In this document: positions 689-10,726 of the stretch, piece after piece | How the letters are laid out: each line of letters opens with the position of its first letter | How positions within the stretch are numbered: the stretch's first letter is position 1 | The notes under the pieces: generated by a model | Database searches by the model: none | What the model saw: the letters and a program-made list of their open reading frames with translations, nothing else | What the model was told of the DNA's origin: nothing | Translations under genes and position numbers: made by a program | Virus record (IMG/VR): IMGVR_UViG_3300047557_003468 | Location: 1 to 32,606 of that record | DNA: 32,606 bases | DNA from: a virus | Direction: 5' to 3' (one strand)

Positions 689-764
689 AAAAAAAAAGAA
701 CAGCGTACCTCTGATCCCTTCTGTACTCCCGTCTCCAGGTAACAGCCCGTCTCAATTGACAACC
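689..764 (-). ncRNA. Structured small RNA, family copy A
   Basis: No start codon or translation leader follows the promoter. In transcript orientation the RNA starts near GGTTGTCAATTGA. The 5' helix pairs UUGUC with GACGG (two G-U pairs). A middle hairpin pairs CUGU-AC with GU-ACAG around one bulged U. The 3' motif GGGATCAGAGGTACGCTG folds with CAG/CUG around the loop AGGUACG, extends to GA/UC across one U-U mismatch, and is followed by nine T, giving a Rho-independent end. This is the only copy with a clear T-run terminator. Function unknown; family described under findings. Confidence 0.7.
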
Positions 765-806
765 TAAAGGTACGAACAAAAAAGGCCCCAGGCAACAGCT
801 AGGGCC
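763..806 (-). promoter_or_regulatory. Nested terminator/promoter: ends CDS 826..1053, starts ncRNA A
   Basis: Reading the minus strand, arms GGCCCTAG and CTGGGGCC (784-806) enclose CTGTTGC and are followed by six T. The TTG in the loop (793-795) is the -33 box; 20 bp further lies TACCTTTAGG (763-772). On the plus strand the same hairpin is followed by ATTTTTTTT, so it can terminate both ways. Confidence 0.75.
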
Positions 807-825
807 ATTTTTTTTGAAAAATCTT

Positions 826-1053
826 TTACCACTCGGTTACCCTCTGCTTCACTTCCTCTGCATAGGTGTGGGACCTGGACATGATGAAAGCATCAGTCTC
901 TACTTCAACACAGTACTCAGCCCATACCTCACGAGCTTCCTGGAATAGCTGGTTGAGAGTACGTTCTCCAGGGGCTACTACGTAGTCCACTTTGTACTCC
1001 TTGATTAACTTGATGCCGTCATAGATTCTGAACTGTGCAGTCTTTTGTGTCAT
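826..1053 (-). CDS. Small protein of unknown function, only minus-strand coding gene
   Basis: 75 aa; I do not recognise the family. It begins MTQKTAQFRIYDGIKLIKEY and continues with an amphipathic stretch (TLNQLFQEAREVWAEYCVEV), consistent with a small alpha/beta domain. The start is fixed by the standard leader (AAATCAAAAGTT before ATG) and by a promoter at 1070-1102 on the same strand. It stops just before the hairpin at 784-806, which also launches ncRNA A. It lies between two ncRNA copies on the same strand, so this 600-bp block is a minus-oriented island in an otherwise plus-strand region. Confidence 0.75.
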   Translation of the reverse strand: MTQKTAQFRIYDGIKLIKEYKVDYVVAPGERTLNQLFQEAREVWAEYCVEVETDAFIMSRSHTYAEEVKQRVTEW

Positions 1054-1069
1054 AACTTTTGATTTATGG

Positions 1070-1102
1070 CCTAAAGGTACAAACTAAATATTAGATTGGC
1101 AA
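1070..1102 (-). promoter_or_regulatory. Promoter for CDS 826..1053
   Basis: On the minus strand: TTG (complement of 1100-1102), 20 bp, TACCTTTAGG (complement of 1070-1079), then a 16-nt leader to the ATG. Confidence 0.75.
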
Positions 1103-1128
1103 CGATTCCCACAAATTTATTTTTCCAT

Positions 1129-1210
1129 GGCTTAGGGACAGCCTACCTCTGATCCAGCTCCAGGAGTTGTTCTCTCCAGCCCGTCTTAACTGCTCCCGCA
1201 AGTGACAGCC
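1129..1210 (-). ncRNA. Structured small RNA, family copy B
   Basis: The transcript begins GGCTGTCACTTGC. The 5' helix pairs CUGUC with GACGG. Inside it ACU pairs with AGU, and GC/GC closes a GGGA (GNRA) tetraloop; copy D has GA/UC and GAGA at the same place, a compensatory change. The middle hairpin pairs GGAG with CUCC. The 3' motif GGATCAGAGGTAGGCTG is conserved and followed by TCCCTAAGCC. No T-run follows, so the 3' end is uncertain. No ATG and no translation leader. Confidence 0.7.
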
Positions 1211-1241
1211 TAAAGGTACAAACTAAATAGGTCCCAGGCAA
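1209..1241 (-). promoter_or_regulatory. Promoter for ncRNA B
   Basis: Minus strand: TTG (complement of 1239-1241), 20 bp beginning CCTGGGACC, TACCTTTAGG (complement of 1209-1218). The right hairpin arm CCTGGGACC is kept although no left arm is present. Confidence 0.7.
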
Positions 1242-1443
1242 CTTTTTCTTTCTTTTTTTTCTTTTCGTGCTATTTATTAATGCGTTGATTGGGCTGGGCC
1301 AGCCTGGTGCTGTAAAAGACCCTATATCCAAGACCCTCATAATCAGCCAGTTAATAAAGGTAATCAAGGTACGCACATAAAAAATTTGCAGCCTAATGCC
1401 GGCTGCTATTCCTATGTCCGGCAAAAAATATTTTTGTAAACTG
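1242..1443. other. Non-coding stretch with hairpins, no gene seen
   Basis: Holds a pyrimidine run (1243-1265), a box CTATTTATTA (1270-1279), a small hairpin GGCTG/CAGCC (1292-1304) and a hairpin GCAGCC/GGCTGC (1388-1406). On the minus strand the second hairpin is followed by AAATTTTTT, so it could end a minus transcript, but I see no gene feeding it. A reading frame over 1143-1460 on the minus strand overlaps ncRNA B and has no start signal. Confidence 0.5.
1270..1279 (+). promoter_or_regulatory. Candidate late promoter box CTATTTATTA
   Basis: Identical to the box at 12491-12500 and preceded by GTG as at 137-139. It lies 212 bp before CDS 1492..1704, so a late promoter for that gene is possible but weakly supported. 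Confidence 0.25.
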
Positions 1444-1495
1444 TTGCCGGGGATGAACAAAGTCCGTATCTTTAGGTCCTAAATCAAAGTTATGA
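1439..1495 (+). repeat. Promoter-leader direct repeat, copy 1 (57 bp)
   Basis: Positions 1439-1495 are identical to 1703-1759. The unit spans the -33 box, spacer, -7 box, leader and start codon. Confidence 0.9.
1444..1476 (+). promoter_or_regulatory. Promoter for CDS 1492..1704
   Basis: TTG 1444-1446, 20 bp, TATCTTTAGG 1467-1476, then leader TCCTAAATCAAAGTT and ATG. Confidence 0.8.
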
Positions 1496-1704
1496 CAAAA
1501 GAACAAATTATCTTAGAGCTTAAAGCAATGGACGTAGACGGTGAAACTATGCAACACATTATTGAAGAGGTTGGAATGAAAGAACAAATGCACCGTCAGT
1601 TAGTAATGTCTTCTCCTATATTTAGGACAGAAGAGGTACTTGAAGAAAGGAGAGAGATTGAAAATATGATCAGTACCTCCCCTGTAAAAATATTTCTCAT
1701 CTAA
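1492..1704 (+). CDS. Small helical protein of unknown function
   Basis: 70 aa, predicted mostly helical from its heptad-like spacing (EQIILELKAMDV, MQHIIEEVGMKEQMHRQ, VLEERREIENMI), with a net charge near neutral. I recognise no family. The start is set by the AAATCAAAGTT leader. Its stop codon is followed at once by a second, identical copy of its own promoter and leader, so there is no terminator between it and the next gene and read-through is likely. Confidence 0.7.
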   Translation: MTKEQIILELKAMDVDGETMQHIIEEVGMKEQMHRQLVMSSPIFRTEEVLEERREIENMISTSPVKIFLI

Positions 1705-1759
1705 CTGTTGCCGGGGATGAACAAAGTCCGTATCTTTAGGTCCTAAATCAAAGTTATGA
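1703..1759 (+). repeat. Promoter-leader direct repeat, copy 2 (57 bp)
   Basis: Identical to 1439-1495. The genes behind the two copies encode unrelated proteins, so only the control cassette was copied. Confidence 0.9.
1708..1740 (+). promoter_or_regulatory. Promoter for CDS 1756..1941
   Basis: TTG 1708-1710, 20 bp, TATCTTTAGG 1731-1740, followed by a 15-nt leader. Confidence 0.8.
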
Positions 1760-1941
1760 ACACAAGCACAAGTTACACTATCGACACCTACATTGATCCA
1801 AACTCAAAGAACCACTGTGTTCTCTTCTCAGTAACGCTGAACGGAAAGAAAGTGTATGAGAGGGATTACGGCTCTCAGATCGAGTCTCTGATCACAATGG
1901 TTACAGACTATCTTAAGTGTATCCATCCAGAAGATTTCTAA
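1756..1941 (+). CDS. Small beta-rich protein of unknown function
   Basis: 61 aa, no family recognised. Alternating hydrophobic residues (YTIDTYIDP, HCVLFSVTLNGKKVYERDY) suggest a three-strand sheet followed by one helix (IESLITMVTDYLKCI). Start set by the duplicated leader; the terminator half of a nested element follows 10 bp after the stop. Confidence 0.7.
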   Translation: MNTSTSYTIDTYIDPNSKNHCVLFSVTLNGKKVYERDYGSQIESLITMVTDYLKCIHPEDF

Positions 1942-1950
1942 AAAATATTT

Positions 1951-1994
1951 GGCCCCAGCTGTTGCTTGGGGCCATTTTAGTTTGTATCTTTAGA
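1951..1994 (+). promoter_or_regulatory. Nested terminator/promoter between CDS 1756..1941 and 2010..2234
   Basis: Hairpin GGCCCCAG/TTGGGGCC (1951-1973; one G-U pair) with TTG in the loop (1962-1964), tail ATTTTAGTTTG, -7 box TATCTTTAGA (1985-1994). Confidence 0.8.
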
Positions 1995-2009
1995 TCCTAA
2001 ATCAAAGTT

Positions 2010-2234
2010 ATGAAAAGAAAGACAGTAAAGTTCGAAGCCATCAGAGAGAAGACAAACGTTCTGCTTGCAGACCCCAAGCTCTCAGTTGAATTTAAGGAAG
2101 GCGTCATAGCCATGTTCGAGCATGTTGCGCATGCTACTGATAATTACAATGGCTACATGTACATTGGCCACACCTCAGAAAAGTCTCTCCCAAGCTGGGG
2201 TACGCAGGAACACGTCACAAGAAAATATTTCTAG
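2010..2234 (+). CDS. Small protein of unknown function
   Basis: 74 aa. A helical N-terminal half (AIREKTNVLLADPKLSVEFK, GVIAMFEHVAHATDNY) is followed by NGYMYIGH and an aromatic C-terminus. The order 'helical pair, then NYNGYMYI' resembles a small phage protein type I have seen repeatedly, but I can attach no function. Start set by the AAATCAAAGTT leader. No GC hairpin follows its stop; the next promoter begins 9 bp later. Confidence 0.7.
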   Translation: MKRKTVKFEAIREKTNVLLADPKLSVEFKEGVIAMFEHVAHATDNYNGYMYIGHTSEKSLPSWGTQEHVTRKYF

Positions 2235-2242
2235 TAAAAAAG

Positions 2243-2275
2243 TTGGGTACGATCAAAATCGGTCGTACCTTTACT
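2243..2275 (+). promoter_or_regulatory. Promoter for CDS 2297..2629 with internal palindrome
   Basis: TTG 2243-2245, 20 bp, TACCTTTACT 2266-2275. The spacer and -7 box contain an inverted repeat GGTACGA/TCGTACC separated by 10 bp (2246-2269). Confidence 0.7.
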
Positions 2276-2296
2276 TCACAATCAAAAATCAAAGTT

Positions 2297-2629
2297 ATGA
2301 AAAAGTACACAAAGATCGAAGGCACAGAAAGCAAGTATCTGAAAGCAGAAGTTTTTTACAACAAGGGTGGTATCAATTACTTTACCAGCCGTACAGAGCC
2401 TAGAGGTTACTGGGCATCAGTAACAGTCGTAGACGTGGATAGGAGAGAGAATGGAGTATCCATTGAGTCCTTCAGTTTGTTTGGTAGCGGTTACAAAGAG
2501 TTCCTCTTCGAAGTCAAGAAGCAGAGTGAGAAGAGCTACAACAGAGCTGTTGCTGAGGCAGGTCCGGTGATTGAGAAAATCCAGAACGCCTTACTTGAAA
2601 AAGCAGGTTATGCAACCACTCCAGCCTAA
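2297..2629 (+). CDS. Conserved-looking phage protein, function unknown
   Basis: 110 aa. The frame is open upstream to 2243, but that stretch is promoter and leader, so the ATG at 2297 (leader AAAATCAAAGTT) is chosen. The sequence has a beta-rich first part (LKAEVFYNKGGINYFTSR, RGYWASVTVVDVDRRENG) and a helical end (FLFEVKKQSEKSYNRAVAEA, VIEKIQNALLEKAG). The KGGINYFTS and RGYWASV elements are typical of a widespread small phage protein without known role. A strong hairpin follows at 2639. Confidence 0.75.
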   Translation: MKKYTKIEGTESKYLKAEVFYNKGGINYFTSRTEPRGYWASVTVVDVDRRENGVSIESFSLFGSGYKEFLFEVKKQSEKSYNRAVAEAGPVIEKIQNALLEKAGYATTPA

Positions 2630-2638
2630 ACGAGTTAA

Positions 2639-2674
2639 GCAGGCTACGGTCCTTTTGGTCGTAGCCTTGCTTTT
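2639..2674 (+). terminator. Intrinsic terminator of CDS 2297..2629
   Basis: Arms GCAGGCTACG (2639-2648) and CGTAGCCTTGC (2660-2670), the latter with one bulged base, followed by TTTT. Confidence 0.7.
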
Positions 2675-2714
2675 GCACATTGCCAGCATTCTTTATTTTT
2701 TCTTTTCAAATTAG

Positions 2715-2747
2715 TTGCCAGTCTCAATCTAAGTTTATATCTTTAGG
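2715..2747 (+). promoter_or_regulatory. Promoter for CDS 2769..3014
   Basis: TTG 2715-2717, 20 bp, TATCTTTAGG 2738-2747. No hairpin arm surrounds this -33 box. Confidence 0.8.
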
Positions 2748-2768
2748 CCACAATCAAAAATCAAAGTT

Positions 2769-3014
2769 ATGTTACAAAAACACTTGACAGCAATCAAAGG
2801 CTTTCTCGCTATTTCAATCTATGAGAAAGTTCACGACATCATGTCCTCAGGTGGAGATTTTGAGTACGAAGATTTCTATATGGACATCCAGCCTTATCTT
2901 CAGGATATTGACAAAATCAAAACTCTCGATGACCTTGACCGCTTCTTATTTGAATCTGAGTTTGTTGAAGCTGGAATTACTTTAGCTTCTTTGTATAAAG
3001 ATTTTGTGAAATGA
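2769..3014 (+). CDS. Small acidic protein of unknown function
   Basis: 81 aa, strongly acidic in its centre (GGDFEYEDFYMDIQPYLQD, DKIKTLDDLDRF), with predicted helices at both ends. No family recognised. Acidic small early proteins of phages often bind host proteins or mimic DNA; that is only a possibility here. The start is set by the leader CAATCAAAAATCAAAGTT. The -33 box of the next gene's promoter lies inside its last codons. Confidence 0.7.
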   Translation: MLQKHLTAIKGFLAISIYEKVHDIMSSGGDFEYEDFYMDIQPYLQDIDKIKTLDDLDRFLFESEFVEAGITLASLYKDFVK

Positions 3015-3035
3015 AAATTAGTTTGTAACTTTAGG
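3004..3035 (+). promoter_or_regulatory. Promoter giving a leaderless or near-leaderless mRNA for CDS 3038..3289
   Basis: TTTG 3003-3006, 19 bp, TAACTTTAGG 3026-3035. The ATG starts at 3038, about where transcription should begin. Confidence 0.6.
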
Positions 3036-3037
3036 AC

Positions 3038-3289
3038 ATGAGAGACAGAGAAACAGAATACGCGAGGGAGCGATTGCGTTACATGGAAATGGACCTCGGT
3101 GACCTCGAGCAGGAGCTCGGGACGTTATACGACCTCAGATTCGAACAGCACTTGATTGAATATGAGAACTCGCACCGGATCGCTTCCTCCGTTTATCTTC
3201 AAAGAATAAAGCAAGGTGAAGTAGTAAGGCCAAAACCTACTTCAGTTAAAAAGAAATCATTTTGGAGCCTCCTGTTGGCGCTTTGGTAG
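3038..3289 (+). CDS. Small coiled-coil protein with hydrophobic C-terminus
   Basis: 83 aa. The first 45 residues are charged and heptad-like (EYARERLRYMEMDLGDLEQE, LGTLYDLRFEQHLIEYEN). The end is lysine-rich and then hydrophobic (KKKSFWSLLLALW), which may touch a membrane but is too short to span one. It lacks the AATCAAAGTT leader: its ATG sits 2 bp after the -7 box, implying leaderless translation. Internal ATG codons at 3083 and 3089 are alternatives but have no leader either. No family recognised. Confidence 0.65.
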   Translation: MRDRETEYARERLRYMEMDLGDLEQELGTLYDLRFEQHLIEYENSHRIASSVYLQRIKQGEVVRPKPTSVKKKSFWSLLLALW

Positions 3290-3305
3290 AAACTTCGTAA
3301 GTTCG
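3275..3305 (+). promoter_or_regulatory. Weak promoter for CDS 3328..3519
   Basis: TTG 3275-3277, 20 bp, TAAGTTCG 3298-3305; the -7 box departs from TATCTTTA. Spacing is the main support. Confidence 0.4.
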
Positions 3306-3327
3306 TTGTATATCAAATTAGATTGTT

Positions 3328-3519
3328 ATGACAACAGCACAAAAGAGGGAAGTCTTCCAAAGAGCCAGGCGCAAGGGAGATATCGCTACCCTAGCCGAAA
3401 GGACTGGCTATTCTCAGTCAATGATTAGCATGACTCTGAATGGTCAGCGAAACAACGAAAGTATTGTTAACACGGCTTACAAGCATGTAAGCAGAAGGAA
3501 AGAGGCTAGAACGAATTAG
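3328..3519 (+). CDS. Small helix-turn-helix DNA-binding protein
   Basis: 63 aa. Residues about 17-50 (DIATLAERTGYSQSMISMTL, NGQRNNESIVNTAYKHV) fit a Cro/CI-like HTH: helix 2, a glycine turn, recognition helix SQSMISMTLNG. The rest is basic. It is the only clear DNA-binding protein of the left region and could act on the repeated promoters, several of which hold inverted repeats. Its own leader (TATCAAATTAGATTGTT) and -7 box are divergent, so it may be regulated differently. A strong terminator follows. Confidence 0.75.
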   Translation: MTTAQKREVFQRARRKGDIATLAERTGYSQSMISMTLNGQRNNESIVNTAYKHVSRRKEARTN

Positions 3520-3545
3520 TGGTTTCATATACTTTTGATTAGACG

Positions 3546-3576
3546 GACCGGGATTTCTATCCTGGTCTTTTTTTTT
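3546..3576 (+). terminator. Intrinsic terminator of CDS 3328..3519
   Basis: Arms GACCGGGAT (3546-3554) and ATCCTGGTC (3559-3567), loop TTCT, one G-U pair, then a run of T to 3576. Confidence 0.85.
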
Positions 3577-3585
3577 GTAAAACTG

Positions 3586-3618
3586 TTGCCTGGGACGAAC
3601 AAAGTTCGTATCTTTAGG
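3586..3618 (+). promoter_or_regulatory. Promoter for CDS 3640..3933 with palindrome
   Basis: TTG 3586-3588, 20 bp, TATCTTTAGG 3609-3618. The inverted repeat ACGAAC-AAA-GTTCGT (3595-3609) ends on the first base of the -7 box. Confidence 0.8.
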
Positions 3619-3639
3619 CCATAACCAAAAATCAAAGTT

Positions 3640-3933
3640 ATGTCAAAGTTAACGTTTCTGAAAGAGTACCCGTTCGGGTTCGAGATTAATCAGTTCGAAG
3701 GTGATAAAAACTACACCATCACAGGTAACCTCAAAAGAGAATATTGCTTCAAGAAGTATGAAAGTAATTACGATGTCGAAGAGCATATACAGAAGCACGT
3801 AGACTGTAGCGGAATTGCTTTCGATTCAGAGTTCTCTCAGTTCTTTGCCTATGCTAAGACAGAAGAAAGAGCCGTGAAGTTTTGCTTAGACATCCAGGCT
3901 TGGTTTGACAGAGTGAGAGAGTTGGTAGATTAA
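3640..3933 (+). CDS. Small protein of unknown function
   Basis: 97 aa, mixed alpha/beta. It starts MSKLTFLKEYPFGFEINQFE, with strands around NYTITGNLKREYCF and a helical end (RAVKFCLDIQAWFDRVRELV). Three cysteines are scattered with no metal-binding spacing. No family recognised. Start fixed by the leader CCAAAAATCAAAGTT. The hairpin of the next nested element begins 9 bp after the stop. Confidence 0.7.
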   Translation: MSKLTFLKEYPFGFEINQFEGDKNYTITGNLKREYCFKKYESNYDVEEHIQKHVDCSGIAFDSEFSQFFAYAKTEERAVKFCLDIQAWFDRVRELVD

Positions 3934-3942
3934 AAAAAGTTT

Positions 3943-3985
3943 GCCCCAGGTGTTGCCTGGGGTCTTTTTTGTTTGTACCTTTAGG
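3943..3985 (+). promoter_or_regulatory. Nested terminator/promoter between CDS 3640..3933 and 4001..4381
   Basis: Arms GCCCCAGG (3943-3950) and CCTGGGGT (3956-3963), loop TGTTG holding the -33 TTG (3953-3955), T6 at 3965-3970, -7 box TACCTTTAGG (3976-3985). Confidence 0.85.
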
Positions 3986-4000
3986 GCAAATCAAAAGATT

Positions 4001-4381
4001 ATGAAACGTCCTTACAAAGTTAGATTCAATCTCGGAGCCGGCAAGAACTACATGAAGTGGAAAGTCGAAGGTCCGACAGGAGTAGCTTACTATTCTCCAG
4101 AAGAAGTCCAGATAGTGATGAGCAACTGTCAACTGAAGAACCAGAAGAAGACAGCGGAGAAGATACTTGAAGGTGCACATAAAACAGTTTGTGCCTGGGT
4201 TAAGTGTGAGAGTGTATCAATCGAAGACAGAACCTTCAACGGAGAGAAAGGTCTTCAGCTTAAGTACAACCCCAGGGTACTGCCTCATTGGTTTATTAAT
4301 GAAGGAGAGAATGTAGACAACATGACTACAGCTTGCATAATTACTTCCGGTCGCAAATTATTTGCACTGGATAGTTGGTAG
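4001..4381 (+). CDS. Conserved-looking phage protein, function unknown
   Basis: 126 aa. The frame is open back to 3941, but that part is the nested terminator/promoter; the ATG at 4001 after AAATCAAAAGATT is the likely start. The pattern (VRFNLGAGKNYMKWKVEGP, GVAYYSPEEVQIVMSNC, QLKNQKKTAEKILEGAHKTV, CAWVKCE) resembles a small phage protein type with a basic KNQKKTAEKI helix followed by CAWV, whose role I do not know. The -33 box of the next promoter lies in its last codons. Confidence 0.75.
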   Translation: MKRPYKVRFNLGAGKNYMKWKVEGPTGVAYYSPEEVQIVMSNCQLKNQKKTAEKILEGAHKTVCAWVKCESVSIEDRTFNGEKGLQLKYNPRVLPHWFINEGENVDNMTTACIITSGRKLFALDSW

Positions 4382-4407
4382 TCTGAAACAAAGTTCCTAT
4401 CTTTAGG
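4375..4407 (+). promoter_or_regulatory. Promoter for CDS 4428..4631, starting inside the upstream gene
   Basis: TTG 4375-4377 falls in the codons for Ser-Trp before the stop of CDS 4001..4381; 20 bp later TATCTTTAGG 4398-4407. Confidence 0.75.
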
Positions 4408-4427
4408 TCACAATCAAAATCAAAGTT

Positions 4428-4631
4428 ATGAAGTTCGAAATTACAGACAGGTCAGAGTACGTAACCAGAATCTTCTCAGTCGAAGATGAGAATGGCAACG
4501 AGTACATTGTTCGCTTCCTTGACAACATTTCCTACACTGCAGTAGAAGTAGAGAGCTTAGATGAGAGCCGGCTATTGGATGAAGAGGAGCCTCTCTTTGC
4601 TGAGCTGGTTGACCTTTGCGAAGCAGATTAA
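4428..4631 (+). CDS. Small acidic protein of unknown function
   Basis: 67 aa. The N-terminal half looks like a beta sheet (KFEITDRSEYVTRIFSVED, NEYIVRFLDNISYTAVEV) and the C-terminal third is very acidic (ESLDESRLLDEEEPLFAELV). No family recognised. Leader AAAATCAAAGTT fixes the start. A nested terminator follows 9 bp after the stop. Confidence 0.7.
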   Translation: MKFEITDRSEYVTRIFSVEDENGNEYIVRFLDNISYTAVEVESLDESRLLDEEEPLFAELVDLCEAD

Positions 4632-4640
4632 AAAAAGTTT

Positions 4641-4683
4641 GCCCCAACTGTTGCTTGGGGCCTTTTTTCTTTGTATCTTTAGG
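4641..4683 (+). promoter_or_regulatory. Nested terminator/promoter between CDS 4428..4631 and 4704..5006
   Basis: Arms GCCCCAA (4641-4647) and TTGGGGC (4655-4661), loop CTGTTGC with TTG at 4651-4653, T6 at 4663-4668, TATCTTTAGG 4674-4683. Confidence 0.85.
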
Positions 4684-4703
4684 CCATCACAAAAATCAAA
4701 GTT

Positions 4704-5006
4704 ATGAAAATTACAAGACAAGAAGCTAAGTTGAAGATCGACAACTTGCAGAACGGAACCATCTACTCCGTAACCTTCATCAAGAAGGATGGCAGTGTAA
4801 GACTGATGAACTCCATCAAAGGAACCAGGAAAGGTGTTAAGGGTGTCGGACTTAAGTTCGATGCTGAGGAGAGAGGATTGATTCCTGTGTATGACATCCA
4901 GCTTGCCAAGAAGGACCCAGCCAACCCAGACAAAGCCTGGAGGATGGTGAACGTAAACACTCTCACTGAGATCTGCGTTAACAAAGAGAGATTTGAAGTA
5001 ATCTAA
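4704..5006 (+). CDS. Small basic beta-rich protein, conserved-looking, function unknown
   Basis: 100 aa. A strand-rich core (TIYSVTFIKKDGSVRLMNSI, GTRKGVKGVGLKFDAEERG, LIPVYDIQLAKKD, WRMVNVNTLTEICVN) is arranged like a small barrel. The sequence VTFIKKDGSVRLMN followed by KGVKGVGLKFD and a YD motif resembles a small protein found in several T4-like and Bacteroidota phages, without known activity. Leader CAAAAATCAAAGTT sets the start. Confidence 0.75.
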   Translation: MKITRQEAKLKIDNLQNGTIYSVTFIKKDGSVRLMNSIKGTRKGVKGVGLKFDAEERGLIPVYDIQLAKKDPANPDKAWRMVNVNTLTEICVNKERFEVI

Positions 5007-5014
5007 AAAAGTCA

Positions 5015-5057
5015 GCCCCAGGTGTTGCCTGGGGCGATTTTAGTTTGTATCTTTAGG
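5015..5057 (+). promoter_or_regulatory. Nested terminator/promoter between CDS 4704..5006 and 5072..5257
   Basis: Arms GCCCCAGG and CCTGGGGC (5015-5035), loop TGTTG, TTG 5025-5027, tail GATTTTAGTTTG, TATCTTTAGG 5048-5057. Confidence 0.8.
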
Positions 5058-5071
5058 TCACAATCAAAGTT

Positions 5072-5536: not shown

Positions 5537-5580
5537 GGCTCCAGGTGTTGCCTGGAGTCTCTTTCCTTTGTATCTTTAGG
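5537..5580 (+). promoter_or_regulatory. Nested terminator/promoter between CDS 5281..5529 and 5609..5977
   Basis: Arms GGCTCCAGG (5537-5545) and CCTGGAGTC (5551-5559); both arms changed relative to the usual GGCCCCAGG yet still pair. Loop TGTTG with TTG 5548-5550; TATCTTTAGG 5571-5580. Confidence 0.85.
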
Positions 5581-6030: not shown

Positions 6031-6040
6031 GTTTGCCCCG

Positions 6041-6073
6041 TTGCCTGGTACGAATTTAGTTCGTACCTTTAGG
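6041..6073 (+). promoter_or_regulatory. Promoter for ncRNA C with 8-bp palindrome
   Basis: TTG 6041-6043, 20 bp, TACCTTTAGG 6064-6073. A perfect inverted repeat GGTACGAA-TTTAG-TTCGTACC (6047-6067) fills the space between -33 and -7 and enters the -7 box. Confidence 0.75.
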
Positions 6074-6150
6074 CTGTCGCTTAGGACAGGCGCCCGAAGA
6101 AAAAGGGTGAAGAGATCAGAGGTAGGCTGCCCCTTATTTTTTTATGGGGG
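6073..6150 (+). ncRNA. Structured small RNA, family copy C (only plus-strand copy)
   Basis: The RNA begins GCTGTCGCTTAGGACAGG. The 5' helix CUGUC/GACAG is perfect where other copies have GACGG with a G-U pair. The middle hairpin CGCCC/GGGUG has a 9-nt loop GAAGAAAAA and matches copy D in stem but not in loop. The 3' motif is AGATCAGAGGTAGGCTG. A further hairpin CCCC/GGGG spans the downstream T-rich stretch. There is no ATG before the next promoter at 6185. Confidence 0.7.
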
Positions 6151-6184: not shown

Positions 6185-6217
6185 TTGCCTGGAACGAAAA
6201 TAGTATGTATCTTTAGG
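6185..6217 (+). promoter_or_regulatory. Promoter for CDS 6239..6619
   Basis: TTG 6185-6187, 20 bp, TATCTTTAGG 6208-6217; leader TCACAATCAAAAATCAAAGTT. Confidence 0.8.
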
Positions 6218-6238
6218 TCACAATCAAAAATCAAAGTT

Positions 6239-6619
6239 ATGAAAAAAAGCATCGCAGACATCCAGTCAGTAGTATCAGCTAGTCCTTCTTCTATCTTCAG
6301 CAAGGACGACGTCTTAGCACTTCTCGCATCAATTGAGGTATCAGCAGGTAAGCCGGAATTGTCCGAAGAGTTCAAAGCAAAACTCTGCACTTTTGTTGCA
6401 GAGAATATCAACGATGCTATGTTTAATTTAGCATCAGATGATGTTGTTAATTTTGACAGTGCAGAGTTTGAGCTTTACGGAAACGAAATCTCACTCAGCT
6501 CGGTTCAGCTTGACTATCGCACATTCAGCAGTCAAGTGAGGAATGAAGTTATAGAGAAGATGAATGACTTTTTCTTCGAAGTAGAAGATGAAGTAAAAGA
6601 AGTAGCAGAAATTAATTAA
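6239..6619 (+). CDS. Acidic protein of unknown function, paralogue of CDS 9648..10040
   Basis: 126 aa. The frame is open back to 5987 across ncRNA C and two promoters; the ATG at 6239 with the standard leader is the real start. It aligns along its length with the product of 9648..10040: PSSIFSKDDVLALLASIE against PSIFTREDVIHLLCKLEE, then EEFKAKLCTFVAENI against PEFKNRILQVVKEAI, FDSAEFELYGNEISL against LYSAEFSMSNNTVEL, and a shared acidic end. No known family recognised; duplication within the region is clear. Confidence 0.75.
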   Translation: MKKSIADIQSVVSASPSSIFSKDDVLALLASIEVSAGKPELSEEFKAKLCTFVAENINDAMFNLASDDVVNFDSAEFELYGNEISLSSVQLDYRTFSSQVRNEVIEKMNDFFFEVEDEVKEVAEIN

Positions 6620-6627
6620 AAAAAACT

Positions 6628-6671
6628 GGCCCTAGGTGTTGCCTAGGGCCAAACTAAGTTGTATCTTTAGG
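6628..6671 (+). promoter_or_regulatory. Nested hairpin/promoter between CDS 6239..6619 and 6696..7508
   Basis: Arms GGCCCTAGG (6628-6636) and CCTAGGGCC (6642-6650), paired changes relative to GGCCCCAGG. Loop TGTTG with TTG 6639-6641. The tail AAACTAAGTTG is poor in T, so termination may be weak. TATCTTTAGG 6662-6671. Confidence 0.8.
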
Positions 6672-6695
6672 TCACACAATTAAACAATAGAAGTT

Positions 6696-7508
6696 ATGTT
6701 AAACAACAACTCACTCGAAATGACAGTTATGACTCAGGAGCAAATCATGAAAGCGGCTCCACAAGCTTACGCATCAACTCCAAAGCCAGGAGTGTCTCAG
6801 AAGTACACGTTCCTTCCTACTAGCCGTATCATTGAGGATATGGACAAGTTGGGTTGGAAAGTAAGCCAAGCCAAAGCAAGCCGTTATCGTAACGCAAGCC
6901 TTGCTGAGTATGGCAACCATGTTATCCGTTTCTTCCACCCGGATATCTACCTCAGGAATGCTGACGGTGGTGTTGAGGCTTACATCAACGTGGTAGTGAT
7001 GAACAACCACACCGGTCGTGGAAGCTTTAGATTTGAGATTGGTATCTTCCGCCTCGTATGTTCCAACGGTCTTGTTATCAAGGATAAGGACTTCGGAAGC
7101 TTCCAGCTTCGCCACTCCGGATACTCTTTTGAGCAGTTGCAAGGGACTATGCAAACAGCCATCGATCGTCTGCCTGACTTGGTTGGTCGCATCAATGTCC
7201 TCTCTCAGAGAATCATGACCAAGGAAGAGCAGTTTGAGTTTGCTCAGAAAGCTTTCCAACTGAGGTCGACTCCTGAGAGGCTGCTGTCTCAAGAAGACCT
7301 TCAGGAGATGCTGGCACCTCGCAGGAAGGAAGATGCTGGTGATTCACTCTGGCATGTATTCAATAGAGTACAGGAGGGAGTAATGAAAGGAGGCTTCATG
7401 GCAGTAGGTAGCAAAGGGAAGCTGAGGAAGGTGAAGGGCATCAGGAACATCCAAAAGGATTTGCAGATGAATCAGGAGCTGTGGGAGATGGCGATGTCTT
7501 ATGCATAG
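6696..7508 (+). CDS. DUF932 domain protein
   Basis: 270 aa, the largest gene of the left region. Residues about 75-175 carry the DUF932 signature: HVIRFFHPDIYLRNADGGVE, then AYINVVVMNNHTGRGSFRFE and GIFRLVCSNGLVI. DUF932 proteins are common on phages and plasmids and have no established biochemical role; some are linked to anti-restriction gene neighbourhoods. The C-terminal third is charged and helical. The leader (CAATAGAAGTT) lacks the usual ATCAAA. An alternative in-frame ATG lies 11 codons in. A strong terminator follows at 7538. Confidence 0.85.
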   Translation: MLNNNSLEMTVMTQEQIMKAAPQAYASTPKPGVSQKYTFLPTSRIIEDMDKLGWKVSQAKASRYRNASLAEYGNHVIRFFHPDIYLRNADGGVEAYINVVVMNNHTGRGSFRFEIGIFRLVCSNGLVIKDKDFGSFQLRHSGYSFEQLQGTMQTAIDRLPDLVGRINVLSQRIMTKEEQFEFAQKAFQLRSTPERLLSQEDLQEMLAPRRKEDAGDSLWHVFNRVQEGVMKGGFMAVGSKGKLRKVKGIRNIQKDLQMNQELWEMAMSYA

Positions 7509-7537
7509 GAGTGAATAGTACGGTACCATAGTTAACG

Positions 7538-7565
7538 GCCCTCCTTTCTAGGAGGGCTTCTTTTA
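7538..7565 (+). terminator. Intrinsic terminator of CDS 6696..7508
   Basis: Perfect arms GCCCTCCT (7538-7545) and AGGAGGGC (7550-7557), loop TTCT, then TTCTTTTAT. Confidence 0.85.
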
Positions 7566-7572
7566 TATTGTA

Positions 7573-7593
7573 TGCAATGCAATGCAATCCAAT
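7573..7593 (+). repeat. Short tandem GCAAT repeat
   Basis: Three perfect GCAAT units followed by two CCAAT-like units, between the terminator at 7538 and the next promoter. Too short to suggest a function. Confidence 0.5.
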
Positions 7594-7616
7594 TCCACTA
7601 GAATATGTTTTTTTTG

Positions 7617-7649
7617 TTGCCAATATCAAAATAAGTTTGTACCTTTAGG
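7617..7649 (+). promoter_or_regulatory. Promoter for CDS 7663..7935
   Basis: TTG 7617-7619, 20 bp, TACCTTTAGG 7640-7649; short leader CTAAATCAAAGTT. Confidence 0.8.
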
Positions 7650-7662
7650 CTAAATCAAAGTT

Positions 7663-7935
7663 ATGACAACAACACGAACAACAGACTGGCTCATTGCTTA
7701 CACAGGCTTCTCCTCTTTCAATCTTATCGAATGTGAAGATGGAGACATCGTTATCGAAGTAGATAGAAGCTACGACGAACTAATCTTTGACGACGTATCC
7801 TTCGATGTCGAAGTTAAGTTTGAGAATGGTGAACCACAGTTCTCAGTACACGAAGGAGGCTTCAGGGAGGCTCTCCTGGACTCTGAGATAGAAACCATGA
7901 GAGAGATGGTTGCAGAGCACTTAAGAAAGAAGTAA
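7663..7935 (+). CDS. Acidic small protein of unknown function
   Basis: 90 aa, rich in Asp and Glu (IECEDGDIVIEVDRSYDELI, FDDVSFDVEVKFENGEPQFS), predicted mostly beta with one C-terminal helix (ETMREMVAEHLRKK). The strongly negative sheet would suit a DNA mimic or a host-protein inhibitor, but I recognise no family, so this is speculation. Its promoter has no hairpin arms. Its terminator at 7942 faces the end of ncRNA D, which is transcribed toward it. Confidence 0.7.
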   Translation: MTTTRTTDWLIAYTGFSSFNLIECEDGDIVIEVDRSYDELIFDDVSFDVEVKFENGEPQFSVHEGGFREALLDSEIETMREMVAEHLRKK

Positions 7936-7941
7936 CACGAG

Positions 7942-7970
7942 GCAGGTCCTGAGCGACCTGCTTCCCTTTT
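7942..7970 (+). terminator. Intrinsic terminator of CDS 7663..7935
   Basis: Arms GCAGGTC (7942-7948) and GACCTGC (7955-7961), loop CTGAGC, then TTCCCTTTT. Confidence 0.75.
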
Positions 7971-7982
7971 ATAGGGGGTATT

Positions 7983-8062
7983 GGGTTAGGCACAGCGTAC
8001 CTCTGATCCCTCCACCCTTCCTGCTCGGGCGCCCGTCTTAACTGATCTCTCAAGTGACAGCC
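7983..8062 (-). ncRNA. Structured small RNA, family copy D
   Basis: The transcript starts near CTGTCACTTGAGAGATCAG. The 5' helix CUGUC/GACGG encloses ACU/AGU and then GA/UC closing a GAGA (GNRA) tetraloop, covarying with GC/GC and GGGA in copy B. The middle hairpin CGCCC/GGGUG has a 9-nt loop. The 3' motif is GGGATCAGAGGTACGCTG followed by TGCCTAACCC. The gene is convergent with CDS 7663..7935. No ATG or coding leader. Confidence 0.7.
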
Positions 8063-8093
8063 TAAAGATACGAACTAAATTTTAGTTTGGCAA
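8061..8093 (-). promoter_or_regulatory. Promoter for ncRNA D
   Basis: Minus strand: TTG (complement of 8091-8093), 20 bp, TATCTTTAGG (complement of 8061-8070), with TTCG before the -7 box. It is divergent from the promoter at 8138. Confidence 0.7.
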
Positions 8094-8137
8094 CTATTTT
8101 TCACAAAAAATAAAAAAATATTTTTTTTCCGGAACTG

Positions 8138-8170
8138 TTGCCTGGGACCATTTTAGATCGTAACTTTATG
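8138..8170 (+). promoter_or_regulatory. Promoter for CDS 8188..8634
   Basis: TTG 8138-8140, 20 bp beginning CCTGGGACC, TAACTTTATG 8161-8170. It keeps the right hairpin arm without a left arm. Confidence 0.75.
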
Positions 8171-8187
8171 CTATCAAAATCAAAGTT

Positions 8188-8634
8188 ATGTCACACACTA
8201 TCGCACACTCCTCCGCTCTCGACTTCATCACTGCTGGCAAGGCCATTTTCACCTGCAAGAGCCTGAAGACCGGCACCAGGTTCACCTACAAGGTAGCCGC
8301 TCCGAAGGACCAGTCTAAGGAGGCTTCTACCATCCTCTTCGTCCAGGTTCTGACCGGTAGCGACAACACCAGTGATTACAGCTTCTTCGGATGCCTCCGC
8401 AGGAACGGAGACACTTGGTCTTTTGCAACCAGTCCTAAGTCTCGCATTGGTGCTACTGCTCCTTCAGTTGTTGCTTTCGATTACATCTTCCGTAATCTGG
8501 CTTCTGGCAGGACTATCGATCAGCTTGAGATCTGGCACGAAGGTAAGTGTTGCAGGTGCGGTAGGAAGCTGACTGATCCGGTTAGCATCGAAACCGGAAT
8601 AGGCCCTGAATGCGCAAGCAGGAAGGCTGCCTAA
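8188..8634 (+). CDS. DUF6011-type protein with C-terminal Cys cluster
   Basis: 148 aa. The C-terminus holds C121-C122-R-C124-G-R-K-L-T-D-P followed by GIGPEC142, the spacing typical of DUF6011 domains and consistent with a small zinc site (Cys121 or Cys122, Cys124 and Cys142 visible; a fourth ligand is unclear). The N-terminal 110 residues form a sheet-rich domain (GKAIFTCKSLKTGTRFTYKV, STILFVQVLTGSD, YSFFGCLRRNGDTWSFATSP). DUF6011 occurs in phage and mobile-element proteins of unknown role, often attached to nucleic-acid-related domains. The gene is divergent from ncRNA D. Confidence 0.8.
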   Translation: MSHTIAHSSALDFITAGKAIFTCKSLKTGTRFTYKVAAPKDQSKEASTILFVQVLTGSDNTSDYSFFGCLRRNGDTWSFATSPKSRIGATAPSVVAFDYIFRNLASGRTIDQLEIWHEGKCCRCGRKLTDPVSIETGIGPECASRKAA

Positions 8635-8643
8635 AAAATATTT

Positions 8644-8687
8644 GGCCCCAGGTGTTGCCTGGGGCCATTTTAGTTTGTATCTTTAGG
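8644..8687 (+). promoter_or_regulatory. Nested terminator/promoter between CDS 8188..8634 and 8713..8931
   Basis: The consensus form: arms GGCCCCAGG (8644-8652) and CCTGGGGCC (8658-8666), loop TGTTG, TTG 8655-8657, tail ATTTTAGTTTG, TATCTTTAGG 8678-8687. Confidence 0.9.
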
Positions 8688-8712
8688 CCATCACAATTAA
8701 AAAATCACAGTT

Positions 8713-8931
8713 ATGCAACTCACACTCCTCCAGCTCAGAGTCCTGATTACAGGTTTGAAATTCGAAGCCAAGACCGGTTTGAAGATGTCCGGCAAAGTTA
8801 ATTCCGCCCTCATTGCTAAGCGTTTCCTTGGTCATCCCGACAAGGCTCGTATCAAGAAGGATGTCTTGGTAGAAGAGCTTCAGAGAGTGCTCACAGACGC
8901 AGAAGCACAGATGAGAGAACAGCATGTGTAG
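8713..8931 (+). CDS. Small basic helical protein of unknown function
   Basis: 72 aa. It contains LKFEAKTGLKMSGKVNSALI, a lysine-rich segment, then HPDKARIKKDVLVEELQRVL, a likely helix. The basic N-terminal half could contact nucleic acid; no family recognised. The leader (TTAAAAAATCACAGTT) has CACAGTT in place of CAAAGTT. A hairpin terminator follows at 8946. Confidence 0.7.
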   Translation: MQLTLLQLRVLITGLKFEAKTGLKMSGKVNSALIAKRFLGHPDKARIKKDVLVEELQRVLTDAEAQMREQHV

Positions 8932-8945
8932 ATGATAGGAAGGAA

Positions 8946-8973
8946 GGACCCTGGCAGAGGCCAGGGTTCCCCT
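8946..8973 (+). terminator. Intrinsic terminator of CDS 8713..8931
   Basis: Arms ACCCTGG (8948-8954) and CCAGGGT (8961-8967) with loop CAGAGG, extended by GG/CC; the tail TCCCCTTTG is only moderately T-rich. Confidence 0.65.
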
Positions 8974-8982
8974 TTGTCCGGC

Positions 8983-9000
8983 GGGCCTTCAGTTAGGCCC
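8983..9000 (-). terminator. Hairpin at the end of ncRNA E
   Basis: Minus strand: arms GGGCCT and AGGCCC, loop AACTGA, directly after the conserved CTG. No T-run follows, so it may protect the end rather than terminate. Confidence 0.45.
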
Positions 9001-9057
9001 AGCGTACCTCTGATCCCTCCGGTGTCTGTTGCCCGCCCTTTCCATATTTGGATAGCC
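8983..9057 (-). ncRNA. Structured small RNA, family copy E (most divergent)
   Basis: The transcript starts near GGCTATCCAAATATGGAAAG. The 5' helix is replaced by UCCA/UGGA around AAUA, while the middle keeps GGGCGGGC and a short CGG/CCG hairpin. The 3' motif GGGATCAGAGGTACGCTG is identical to copies A and D. It is followed by a strong hairpin GGGCCT/AGGCCC. Loss of the 5' helix with retention of the 3' motif marks the 3' hairpin as the core. No start codon or translation leader. Confidence 0.65.
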
Positions 9058-9088
9058 TAAAGTTACGAACTATTCCGGTCCCAGGCAA
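9056..9088 (-). promoter_or_regulatory. Promoter for ncRNA E
   Basis: Minus strand: TTG (complement of 9086-9088), 20 bp beginning CCTGGGACC, TAACTTTAGG (complement of 9056-9065). Confidence 0.7.
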
Positions 9089-9132
9089 CTTTTTTGCAAA
9101 ATATTTATTTTTTATTTTTTTTATATTTTTGT

Positions 9133-9164
9133 TTGATAATTGAGATTTAGTTTGTAACTTTATA
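9133..9164 (+). promoter_or_regulatory. Promoter for CDS 9186..9374
   Basis: TTTG 9132-9135, 19 bp, TAACTTTATA 9155-9164. It is close to the host consensus and lacks the GTTGCCTGG cassette. Confidence 0.65.
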
Positions 9165-9185
9165 TCATAATCAAAAATCAAAGTT

Positions 9186-9374
9186 ATGAAAGTAGCAAAG
9201 ACAGTTATCCCCCAGGACCGCCCTTCATTCAATGATTGGGCAGCTGAATTTAAAGTAGGCATTCTGGCTCCGAAGCCAGTCAACGCCAGAGCTGTAGAAA
9301 TGATGGCTTCTTATGATTGGAAGCCTAAGTCTCAGAAGACTACCAAGATAATTCAGAAGCCTTGGTATCTGTAA
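9186..9374 (+). CDS. Small basic protein of unknown function
   Basis: 62 aa, basic, with prolines and two aromatic ends (PSFNDWAAEFKVGILAPKPV, MMASYDWKPKSQKTTKII, QKPWYL). Little regular structure is expected in the last 20 residues. No family recognised. Leader CAAAAATCAAAGTT fixes the start. Confidence 0.65.
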   Translation: MKVAKTVIPQDRPSFNDWAAEFKVGILAPKPVNARAVEMMASYDWKPKSQKTTKIIQKPWYL

Positions 9375-9382
9375 AAAAAAAT

Positions 9383-9426
9383 GGCCCCAGCTGTTGCCTG
9401 GGGCCAAACTAAGTTGTATCTTTAGG
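9383..9426 (+). promoter_or_regulatory. Nested hairpin/promoter between CDS 9186..9374 and 9448..9573
   Basis: Arms GGCCCCAG and CTGGGGCC (9383-9405), loop CTGTTGC, TTG 9394-9396; the tail AAACTAAGTTG is T-poor as at 6651; TATCTTTAGG 9417-9426. Confidence 0.8.
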
Positions 9427-9447
9427 TCACAATCAAAAATAAAAGTT

Positions 9448-9573
9448 ATGATTTCACTCAGCGTTATTCCAAATCTCAGAGACACTCCATCCAATGTACG
9501 TAAGGCAGTCATCGCTTGCTTGATGCTCGATGCATGCTATCTTCTGCCAATGTTTTATTCTTTGTCTCTGTAA
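9448..9573 (+). CDS. Very small (41 aa) protein with hydrophobic C-terminal half
   Basis: Supported by position, not by homology. It has a complete promoter and leader (CAATCAAAAATAAAAGTT) upstream and a nested terminator 9 bp after the stop, exactly like its longer neighbours. It begins MISLSVIPNLRDTPSNVRKA and ends with a hydrophobic stretch VIACLMLDACYLLPMFYSLS (residues about 21-40), which could be a short membrane segment. Small membrane-active peptides are common in phage early regions; here this is an inference. Confidence 0.65.
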   Translation: MISLSVIPNLRDTPSNVRKAVIACLMLDACYLLPMFYSLSL

Positions 9574-9582
9574 GAAAAAGTT

Positions 9583-9626
9583 GGCCCCAACTGTTGCTTG
9601 GGGCCATTTTAGTTTGTATCTTTAGG
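9583..9626 (+). promoter_or_regulatory. Nested terminator/promoter between CDS 9448..9573 and 9648..10040
   Basis: Arms GGCCCCAA and TTGGGGCC (9583-9605), loop CTGTTGC, TTG 9594-9596, tail ATTTTAGTTTG, TATCTTTAGG 9617-9626. Confidence 0.85.
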
Positions 9627-9647
9627 CCATAATAAAAAATCAAAGTT

Positions 9648-10040
9648 ATGAACACACAGGAAATTTTCAATCAGACCAGACATCAAGTTCTCAACAGCTT
9701 TCCTTCCATCTTCACAAGAGAGGATGTTATCCATCTCCTCTGCAAGCTTGAAGAGTCTGTTGAAGCAGTAGAGAAGCCAGCAGCCACTTCAGTAATCACT
9801 CCTGAGTTTAAGAATCGCATTTTGCAAGTTGTTAAGGAAGCTATTGATGAGTCAGCAGAAAACCTGGAATCAGGTGATATAGTTGATTTGTACTCAGCTG
9901 AATTTTCAATGAGCAACAATACTGTTGAGCTTGACAGTGTTAACATTAATCATGAAGACATGGCTCGAGAAATGAAGAGAGAAGTTTGCTACTCACTCAA
10001 TAATTTGTTTGAGGAAATTGAGTCGAAAGAAGAACTTTAA
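9648..10040 (+). CDS. Acidic protein of unknown function, paralogue of CDS 6239..6619
   Basis: 130 aa. It shares with the 126-aa product of 6239..6619 the order SIFTREDVIHLL, ITPEFKNRILQVVKEAIDES, AENLESGDIVDLYSAEF, and a long C-terminal helix ending in Glu-rich sequence (SLNNLFEEIESKEEL). A 10-residue insertion (EAVEKPAATS) sits near position 45. Predicted mostly helical and acidic. Leader AAAAAATCAAAGTT sets the start. Confidence 0.75.
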   Translation: MNTQEIFNQTRHQVLNSFPSIFTREDVIHLLCKLEESVEAVEKPAATSVITPEFKNRILQVVKEAIDESAENLESGDIVDLYSAEFSMSNNTVELDSVNINHEDMAREMKREVCYSLNNLFEEIESKEEL

Positions 10041-10057
10041 GAAGCTTAAAAAAAATT

Positions 10058-10101
10058 GGTCCCAACTGTTGGTTGGGACCTTTTTTGTTTGTATCTTTAG
10101 G
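10058..10101 (+). promoter_or_regulatory. Nested terminator/promoter between CDS 9648..10040 and 10122..10406
   Basis: Arms GGTCCCAAC (10058-10066) and GTTGGGACC (10072-10080), loop TGTTG, TTG 10069-10071, T6, TATCTTTAGG 10092-10101. Stem bases differ from the consensus while pairing is kept. Confidence 0.9.
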
Positions 10102-10121
10102 TCAACAAAAAAATCAAAGTT

Positions 10122-10406
10122 ATGATTACTCCAACTCAGTTCCTCAGTTCAGAAATCTCTCAGATCTCTCAGGTGTACAGTGGCAAGCGTAATCACTGCA
10201 GATGCGGATGTGGTGGTACTTATGTAGCTACTACTTTCATGATCAAGCCTCGCACAGATGAGATCAACAACGATCTCGTAGCCAGACGCTTGAAGAGAGC
10301 AAAGAAGCTTGTTCAGCAAGGAGCAGATGTTGATTACGGAGACAACTACGTCGACATCGAAACCGGAAACAACAGAGCACTGACTTTCTACTTTGACGAA
10401 GTCTAA
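10122..10406 (+). CDS. Small protein with CRCGCGG cysteine motif
   Basis: 94 aa. The motif VYSGKRNHCRCGCGGTYVAT at residues about 18-38 is like a 'GK..CCCGC.G.Y' element seen in small phage proteins of unknown role. Two closely spaced cysteines plus the adjacent histidine could bind a metal, perhaps in a dimer. A helix (LVARRLKRAKKLVQQGADVD) and a terminal strand pair (YVDIETGNNRALTFYFDEV) follow. Leader AAAAAATCAAAGTT sets the start. Confidence 0.75.
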   Translation: MITPTQFLSSEISQISQVYSGKRNHCRCGCGGTYVATTFMIKPRTDEINNDLVARRLKRAKKLVQQGADVDYGDNYVDIETGNNRALTFYFDEV

Positions 10407-10415
10407 AAAAAAGTT

Positions 10416-10459
10416 GGTCCCAGCTGTTGCCTGGGACCTCTTTTGTTTGTATCTTTAGG
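10416..10459 (+). promoter_or_regulatory. Nested terminator/promoter between CDS 10122..10406 and 10480..10674
   Basis: Arms GGTCCCAG and CTGGGACC (10416-10438), loop CTGTTGC, TTG 10427-10429, tail TCTTTTGTTTG, TATCTTTAGG 10450-10459. Confidence 0.85.
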
Positions 10460-10479
10460 CCATCACAAAAATCAAAGTT

Positions 10480-10674
10480 ATGACACACACAGCAGAAGTT
10501 AGCACACTGGTTCATCTCACTCCTGAAGAATTATGGACTCTCAGAATGGCTCTCTCTACCAGGGTTAAGTTCCTGGAGGCAGACTTGATTCCTATCTTAT
10601 CTAATCCAGGGCTCTGGATTGAGGAAGTAGAGGAAGCTAAGGCTTTAGAAAAGAAGCTACGAGCTTGCCAGTAA
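10480..10674 (+). CDS. Small helical protein of unknown function
   Basis: 64 aa, two predicted helices: LTPEELWTLRMALSTRVKFL and a second EEVEEAKALEKKLRAC, separated by a proline-containing turn (SNPGLW). The first helix resembles the helical hairpins of small phage proteins without known role. Leader CAAAAATCAAAGTT sets the start. Confidence 0.7.
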   Translation: MTHTAEVSTLVHLTPEELWTLRMALSTRVKFLEADLIPILSNPGLWIEEVEEAKALEKKLRACQ

Positions 10675-10682
10675 AAAAAATT

Positions 10683-10726
10683 GGTCCCAGCTGTTGCCTG
10701 GGACCTTCTTTCTTTGTATCTTTAGG
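10683..10726 (+). promoter_or_regulatory. Nested terminator/promoter between CDS 10480..10674 and 10748..10945
   Basis: Arms GGTCCCAG and CTGGGACC (10683-10705), loop CTGTTGC, TTG 10694-10696, tail TTCTTTCTTTG, TATCTTTAGG 10717-10726. Confidence 0.85.

Follow-up and report, generated by a model that had tools for sequence, protein, structure and literature searches.

Here, we describe a nested element that recurs between small genes of a viral genome fragment, the 32.6 kb IMG/VR virus record IMGVR_UViG_3300047557_003468, which in its whole length of 32,606 nucleotides is referred to below as the window. Each copy spans about 45 bases, in which a GC-rich hairpin carries the TTG of a -33 promoter box in its loop and a -7 box of the form TAnCTTTAG follows 20 bases on. 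The left 11 kb of the window holds small genes in series, almost all on the plus strand, and the right half holds genes for T4-like tail and baseplate proteins, the baseplate wedge proteins matching PHROG tail families. The closest named relative is Flavobacterium phage vB_FspM_immuto (hereafter immuto), with 37 per cent identity for a DUF932 protein and 45 per cent for a baseplate wedge protein; immuto proteins are annotated as T4-like gp20 and gp23. Judged from its predicted proteins, the window phage is T4-like; its hosts are of Bacteroidota type. A megablast search for near-identical phage records returned none, and comparisons were made with other viral contigs, designated by L-numbers.

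A preliminary description of the window had placed 13 such hairpins, and all 13 were found in place (Table 1), with the spacing TTG-N20-TAnCTTTAG exact in every one. Twelve lie on the plus strand; the copy at 763-806 lies on the minus strand, is located downstream of the minus-strand gene 1053-826 and is predicted to drive a small-RNA-like unit (see below). The hairpins begin shortly downstream of the stop codon of the upstream gene. The box and loop forms given in that description (loop TGTTG or CTGTTGC) hold with one exception each: the 1951 copy carries TATCTTTAGA as its -7 box, and the loop at 10058 is CTGTTGG, where the C after GTTG has become G together with its partner, so that the ninth pair is kept as C-G.

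The position of the hairpin was examined around promoters picked by their -33 and -7 sequences alone, for which the pattern GTTG-N20-TAnCTTTAG defines 25 in the window. Around these promoters, hairpins were scored at all centres between about -45 and +70, a strong stem being one with a score of at least 8. Strong stems occur at one single offset, exactly on GTTG, in 13 of the 25 promoters (52 per cent), the next best offsets reaching 4 per cent each; chance is excluded as the origin of this register. Folding energies run from -12 to -23 kcal/mol in the nested copies and from 0 to -6.5 kcal/mol in the other window promoters. The promoter itself is well defined: the pattern GTTGC-N-TANCTTTAGG has 22 matches in the window and its reversed control none, and the stricter form GTTGC-N19-TAnCTTTAGG occurs 22 times in the 32.6 kb record versus once in each of three Bacteroidota genomes (3.3-4.0 Mb). 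In 400 kb of one Bacteroidota genome, no terminator-like hairpin was found around TTG, the 10-15 intergenic consensus promoters there being too few to exclude nesting in hosts.

Hairpin-free promoters of the window have a -33 box, spacing and -7 box identical to those of the nested copies. Because they often keep GTTGCCTGG or GTTGCCA, the right arm is probably in part promoter sequence, belonging to an extended -33 motif; the right half (GTTGCCTGGG.. or GTTGCTAGT..) is also found without a left arm. The earlier view that pairing is selected while TTG stays constant is thus borne out as to the pairing, but pairing is not the sole constraint on the arms.

That the arms vary in pairs, as had been proposed, is confirmed by a stem alignment of the 13 window copies and two from L009, the closest relative among the contigs: both sides are altered at five of the nine stem pairs, versus none in every slid control, the copies having been chosen as folding, which biases the percentage paired upward. 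A ten-copy set from other phages has compensatory changes at six of nine pairs (slid controls over both sets, 0-1). Orthologous copies behave in the same way. At 4641 and its counterpart L009 8028, which lie between homologous genes, one stem pair is C-G in the window and T-A in L009, and the minus-strand copies at 796 in the window and 5353 in L009 also differ by a compensatory change. Wobble positions read G-U solely in the sense-RNA orientation.

Two tests are free of selection by fold: the register scan, based on the boxes only, and a picking of sites in other phages by the right half only (GTTGYTNGTNNNCTTTNTTTNNNNTATCTTTAGG). Of 12 sites picked in the latter way, 11 have a left arm complementary to the right, and 35 of the 36 positions free to vary are paired (permutation p = 1e-5); in the lone exception, L099, the same right half stands without a left arm. 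These patterns suggest that the stem is selected as sense RNA and that terminator and promoter functions are both kept by selection.

The bases beyond the stem are also those of a terminator. The eight bases after the stem contain on average 4.3 T in nested copies versus 1.9 at the equivalent position of promoters that are not nested (p = 7e-4), and a generic terminator scan of 11.5 kb called 39 sites, most nested hairpins included, against 10.9 +/- 4.0 in shuffled sequence. A GC-rich hairpin followed by at least four T in eight bases is present in 11 of the 13 copies, the two that fail on the sense strand being those at 6628 and 9383. Their T-poor tails are as the preliminary description had them, and the scan calls both on the minus strand only, with runs of 8-9 T. 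Indeed, since the stem is preceded by a run of A, most nested hairpins are also called as terminators in the opposite direction. Given the compensatory changes, the sense-only wobbles and the T-rich tail, the nested hairpin fits an intrinsic terminator of the upstream gene rather than a DNA operator.

A census of the 25 tandem plus-strand junctions between 1492 and 11471 places the element among several layouts. Twelve junctions are nested, with gaps of 65-81 bases (the minus-strand copy is additional); six have a separate terminator followed by a promoter, with gaps of 120-263 bases (e.g. that at 3545-3618); and four have a promoter without a terminator, with gaps of 23-51 bases. These last four contradict the earlier claim that each gene is insulated. 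The remaining three comprise one element that we call type II (2242-2275), one type II-like hairpin without a clear -7 box (after 10945) and one junction with neither signal. Nested gaps being 65-81 bases against 120-263 with a separate terminator, nesting spares about 50 bases or more per junction, yet other solutions are also used. Type II elements, which also occur at junctions in L009, consist of GTTGG(G)TNCC and a hairpin that fills the spacer, with a 3' arm that forms the -7 box (..GTACCTTTAC) or is decayed (..GGACCTTTAC, ..GGACCTTCC), as if in the decayed copies the terminator had been kept and the promoter lost.

The preliminary description had suggested a search of phages for the combined promoter and hairpin, and in a scan of viral contigs, searched for the promoter and then tested for hairpins, the same layout was found with unrelated arms in many phages (Table 1). 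Of 258 viral promoters, 22 have a hairpin whose centre is 0-4 bases from the box and 21 have one at 5-9 bases; the corresponding numbers for 116 matches of the same pattern in cellular contigs are 2 and 4. The cellular matches, mostly single and scattered over unrelated phyla, serve as a background control only, and hairpin centres among them are evenly spread. Some viral contigs have forms with GTTGC placed in the 5' arm. The immuto isolate (NC_055915) has two copies of that kind and one with the box in the loop; a stem in its record ends near 68,727, with TATCTTTAGG at 68,738. A blastn search with the window element against named phages gave no match. Genes for DUF932, a phosphohydrolase and a sigma-like protein are common to the window phage and several of the element-bearing phages; because of this sharing, the phages are taken to form a single broad lineage or gene pool, with arms that have been replaced or have evolved anew.

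We consider it likely that each copy is an intrinsic terminator fused to a promoter, set among the small genes of a T4-like phage that infects Bacteroidota-type bacteria. In the sense orientation, the RNA of the upstream gene would form the GC-rich hairpin, with a U-rich stretch behind it, and would be released in the spacer. In the DNA, the same bases would be read differently: the loop as the -33 box (GTTGC), the 3' arm as part of the extended -33 motif, the U-tract as spacer and TAnCTTTAGG, 20 bases on, as the -7 box, with transcription starting after it. The loop and a large part of the right arm would be fixed by the promoter, leaving the left arm to evolve as the complement, and a compact junction of 65-81 bases would let one transcript end and the next begin; in most copies, transcripts arriving from the other side are probably stopped too, by the run of A ahead of the hairpin. 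The original proposal, that about 45 bp end one transcript and start the next, is well supported as to the fusion by register, covariation, wobbles, tail and recurrence; the ending and starting of transcripts we infer.

Several points weigh against this interpretation. The observations concern position, spacing, pairing, wobble strand, tail coupling and recurrence, from which termination, initiation and insulation are derived. The sense U-tract is missing in two copies, and several junctions use the same promoter without a hairpin, so promoter use does not require nesting. The window copies have similar arms, a similarity that in part reflects shared descent or recombination, and the copies behind the counts of five and six covarying pairs out of nine were selected for folding.

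There is a substantial possibility that the elements serve chiefly as recombination cassettes of the promoter-early stem-loop (PeSL) kind, that is, patches of homology for gene insertion and loss that carry regulation with them. The phage is T4-like, and the block at 8.2-11.5 kb, rich in nested copies, has genes mostly without a counterpart in L009, the flanking genes being conserved (a single genome pair). The element type can also differ at the same junction, which is nested at 5537 in the window and type II at 9259 in L009. However, compensatory changes and tail coupling point to selection on an RNA fold beyond DNA homology. Additionally, the CCTAG arm at 6628 is shared with the promoter before the same gene in L009, GTTGCCTAGAATG, and because that promoter is un-nested, a left arm would seem to have been either gained or lost in situ by a promoter that already existed. 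The cassette and terminator-promoter readings are compatible.

A direct hand-off, in which the terminating polymerase is placed on the next promoter and restarts after a slide of a few bases in a relay between successive small genes, we regard as unlikely. Release is predicted within the spacer, immediately upstream of the -7 box, and bacterial RNA polymerase in vitro can slide after termination and restart at downstream promoters, with a dependence on terminator-promoter distance to be expected (PMC6978380). Tandem terminator-promoter junctions of the same genome, however, would serve nearly as well, and compactness alone explains the nesting. More doubtful still is the broader proposal that nesting is a general, repeatedly evolved solution of Bacteroidota phages combined with such a relay, one-gene transcripts being chained like an operon with a new start for each gene.

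That the inverted repeat is instead a DNA operator, bound over the -33 box by a dimeric phage regulator, is very improbable. In its favour, the repeat is centred on the -33 box, a small protein encoded at 3328-3519 has a weak helix-turn-helix match (PF01381, E = 0.014), and the spacer of the promoter at 6040 contains a perfect palindrome. We set this explanation aside on three grounds: the arms change freely if paired and are wholly different between phages, the wobbles suit RNA, whereas a DNA palindrome would be mismatched at them, and the T-rich tail accompanies the hairpin. Least probable of all, and likewise set aside, is a signal of the type found in promoters of the N4 virion RNA polymerase, where a single-stranded DNA hairpin is itself the signal: the distance from hairpin to -7 box is fixed, as such a signal would have it, but 11 of the 25 window promoters have the same boxes and spacing with no hairpin centred on the -33 box, and the hairpin lies at -33, far from the start site.

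Table 1. Nested elements, comparison junctions and other features in the window (plain coordinates) and in other viral contigs (L-numbers).
Feature	Location	Strand	Details
Nested element	763..806	-	Hairpin 806-784 GGCCCTAG[CTGTTGC]CTGGGGCC, T6 tail; -7 box TACCTTTAGG 772-763
Nested element	1950..1994	+	Hairpin 1950-1974 with G-U wobble; -7 box TATCTTTAGA 1985-1994
Nested element	3943..3985	+	Hairpin 3943-3963, tail CTTTTTT; -7 box TACCTTTAGG 3976-3985
Nested element	4641..4683	+	Hairpin 4641-4661; -7 box 4674-4683; positional orthologue of L009 8028
Nested element	5015..5057	+	Hairpin 5015-5035; -7 box 5048-5057
Nested element	5537..5580	+	Hairpin GGCTCCAGG/CCTGGAGTC 5537-5559; -7 box 5571-5580
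Nested element, CCTAG variant arm	6627..6671	+	Hairpin 6627-6651; sense tail T-poor; minus-strand run of 8 T; -7 box 6662-6671
Nested element	8643..8687	+	Hairpin 8643-8667, most stable (-22 to -23 kcal/mol); -7 box 8678-8687
Nested element	9382..9426	+	Hairpin 9382-9406; sense tail T-poor; minus-strand run of 9 T; -7 box 9417-9426
Nested element	9582..9626	+	Hairpin 9582-9606; -7 box 9617-9626
Nested element	10058..10101	+	GGTCCCAAC[TGTTG]GTTGGGACC; -7 box 10092-10101
Nested element	10416..10459	+	Hairpin 10416-10438; -7 box 10450-10459
Nested element	10683..10726	+	Hairpin 10683-10705; -7 box 10717-10726
Un-nested comparison	3545..3618	+	Terminator 3545-3568 and run of T; promoter GTTG 3585 to -7 box 3609-3618
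Type II element	2242..2275	+	Hairpin 2245-2270 in spacer; 3' arm runs into -7 box (GGTACGA..TCGTACC-TTTAC)
Type II hairpin without clear -7 box	10949..10981	+	GTTGGGTCCGGCTAGAAATAGTCGGACCTTCC
Type II junction elements	L009 8384-8430, 8937-8970, 9259-9305
Nested arms in other phages	L050, L054, L065, L068, L093, L112, L122		AGCAGATTA[GTTGC]TAGTCTGCT and variants
Nested stems in another phage	L079		GGGAGCAG stems around TTGGAA; six copies in about 3 kb
Nested arms in other phages	L051, L115		AGGGGAGGG[TTGGTT]CCCTCCTCT
Small-RNA-like units	772-690, 1218-1140, 8070-7990, 9065-8995	-
Small-RNA-like unit	6064-6135	+
Small-RNA-like relatives	L009 5270, L025 2684, L263 8984, L265 381, L276 854, L280 1576	-
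Small-RNA-like relatives	L009 9830, L010 356, L262 92, L266 2505, L281 2033	+
Candidate phage sigma factor, 257 amino acids	15602..16375	+	Weak sigma-70 region 2 match, E = 0.055

Other features of the window were recorded alongside the nested element. Five copies of a small-RNA-like unit lie within 9 kb, mostly on the minus strand between genes, each consisting of a promoter, the motif (C/T)TGTC-loop-GACGGGC (a small stem CTGTC/GACGG), a variable hairpin and the near-invariant tail GATCAGAGGTASGCTG. About ten further viral contigs contain relatives, in some cases behind a different promoter. The units appear to form a new family of small RNAs in these phages: searches of named phages and plasmids gave no match, and Rfam returned nothing above the gathering score in the window and no match for the family. 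The RNAalifold consensus is weak, with no compensatory pairs. The promoter of the plus-strand unit (6040-6073) has in its spacer a perfect palindrome, GGTACGAA-TTTAG-TTCGTACC, which could be an operator.

Directly 5' of the start codon of most plus-strand small genes between 1.5 and 11 kb, a conserved leader near AATCAAAGTTATG is found, perhaps a translation signal used by a host without dependence on Shine-Dalgarno pairing. The sigma-like protein (232-257 amino acids) is conserved in L079 (1760-2530, minus strand), in L140 (38175-38873) and in immuto; a PDB search with the 257-amino-acid window protein gave no match. A predicted tail-associated protein (30766-32208) contains a long low-complexity tract rich in threonine, and no transfer RNA genes were found in the window.

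In the nested element, signals read in RNA and in DNA, with conflicting demands, would share the same bases under a simple rule: the promoter dictates the loop and right arm, to which the left arm adapts. Such a rule would allow promoters and terminators to be predicted in phages of Flavobacterium-like hosts, for which tools are few, and immuto provides a cultured phage in which these could be tested. The elements also offer a natural test of terminator-promoter distance as a determinant of polymerase recycling and could serve as compact insulating parts for genetic work in Bacteroidota.

The promoter boxes resemble those of Bacteroidota sigma promoters (TTTG / TAnnTTTG) in having a -33 TTG and a TAnnTTT-type -7 box about 20 bases apart; the window boxes differ in being stricter (GTTGC-N19-TAnCTTTAGG), with a -7 box of TAnCTTTAG(G) rather than TAnnTTTG. 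As a repeated unit of promoter and inverted repeat before many small genes, the element recalls that of the haloarchaeal tailed virus HGTV-1, in which a TATA-like box and an inverted repeat precede most left-side open reading frames (PMC3950731). That promoter is archaeal, however, and the available portion of the account mentions no nesting around an upstream promoter box (PMC3950731).

The closest known kind is the PeSL, a composite promoter-terminator cassette of T4-like phages (Arbiol 2010, as cited in PMC4503421) for which a role in gene shuffling as well as regulation has been proposed. As described there, PeSLs are repeated units of promoter and stem-loop terminator between small variable genes of a T4-like myophage, dense where gene content differs between relatives. 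The window element shares both traits, the second in the 8.2-11.5 kb block of one genome pair, whose near absence from L009 is what the PeSL role would predict. The T4 layout, read from the T4 sequence itself, is nevertheless different: among 13 early-type promoters in four scanned stretches, none has a hairpin centred on the -35 box, two have nearby upstream hairpins 25-28 bases away and one has a hairpin in the spacer. The stem-loop in T4 thus stands beside the -35 box, whereas the window element holds the -33 box in the loop, in fixed register and with Bacteroidota-type boxes. A search for overlapping or nested terminator-promoters, which covered part of the literature, found no description of this layout. 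Composite cassettes as such are already known; it is the register, with a -33 box inside the loop of a predicted terminator, that looks new.

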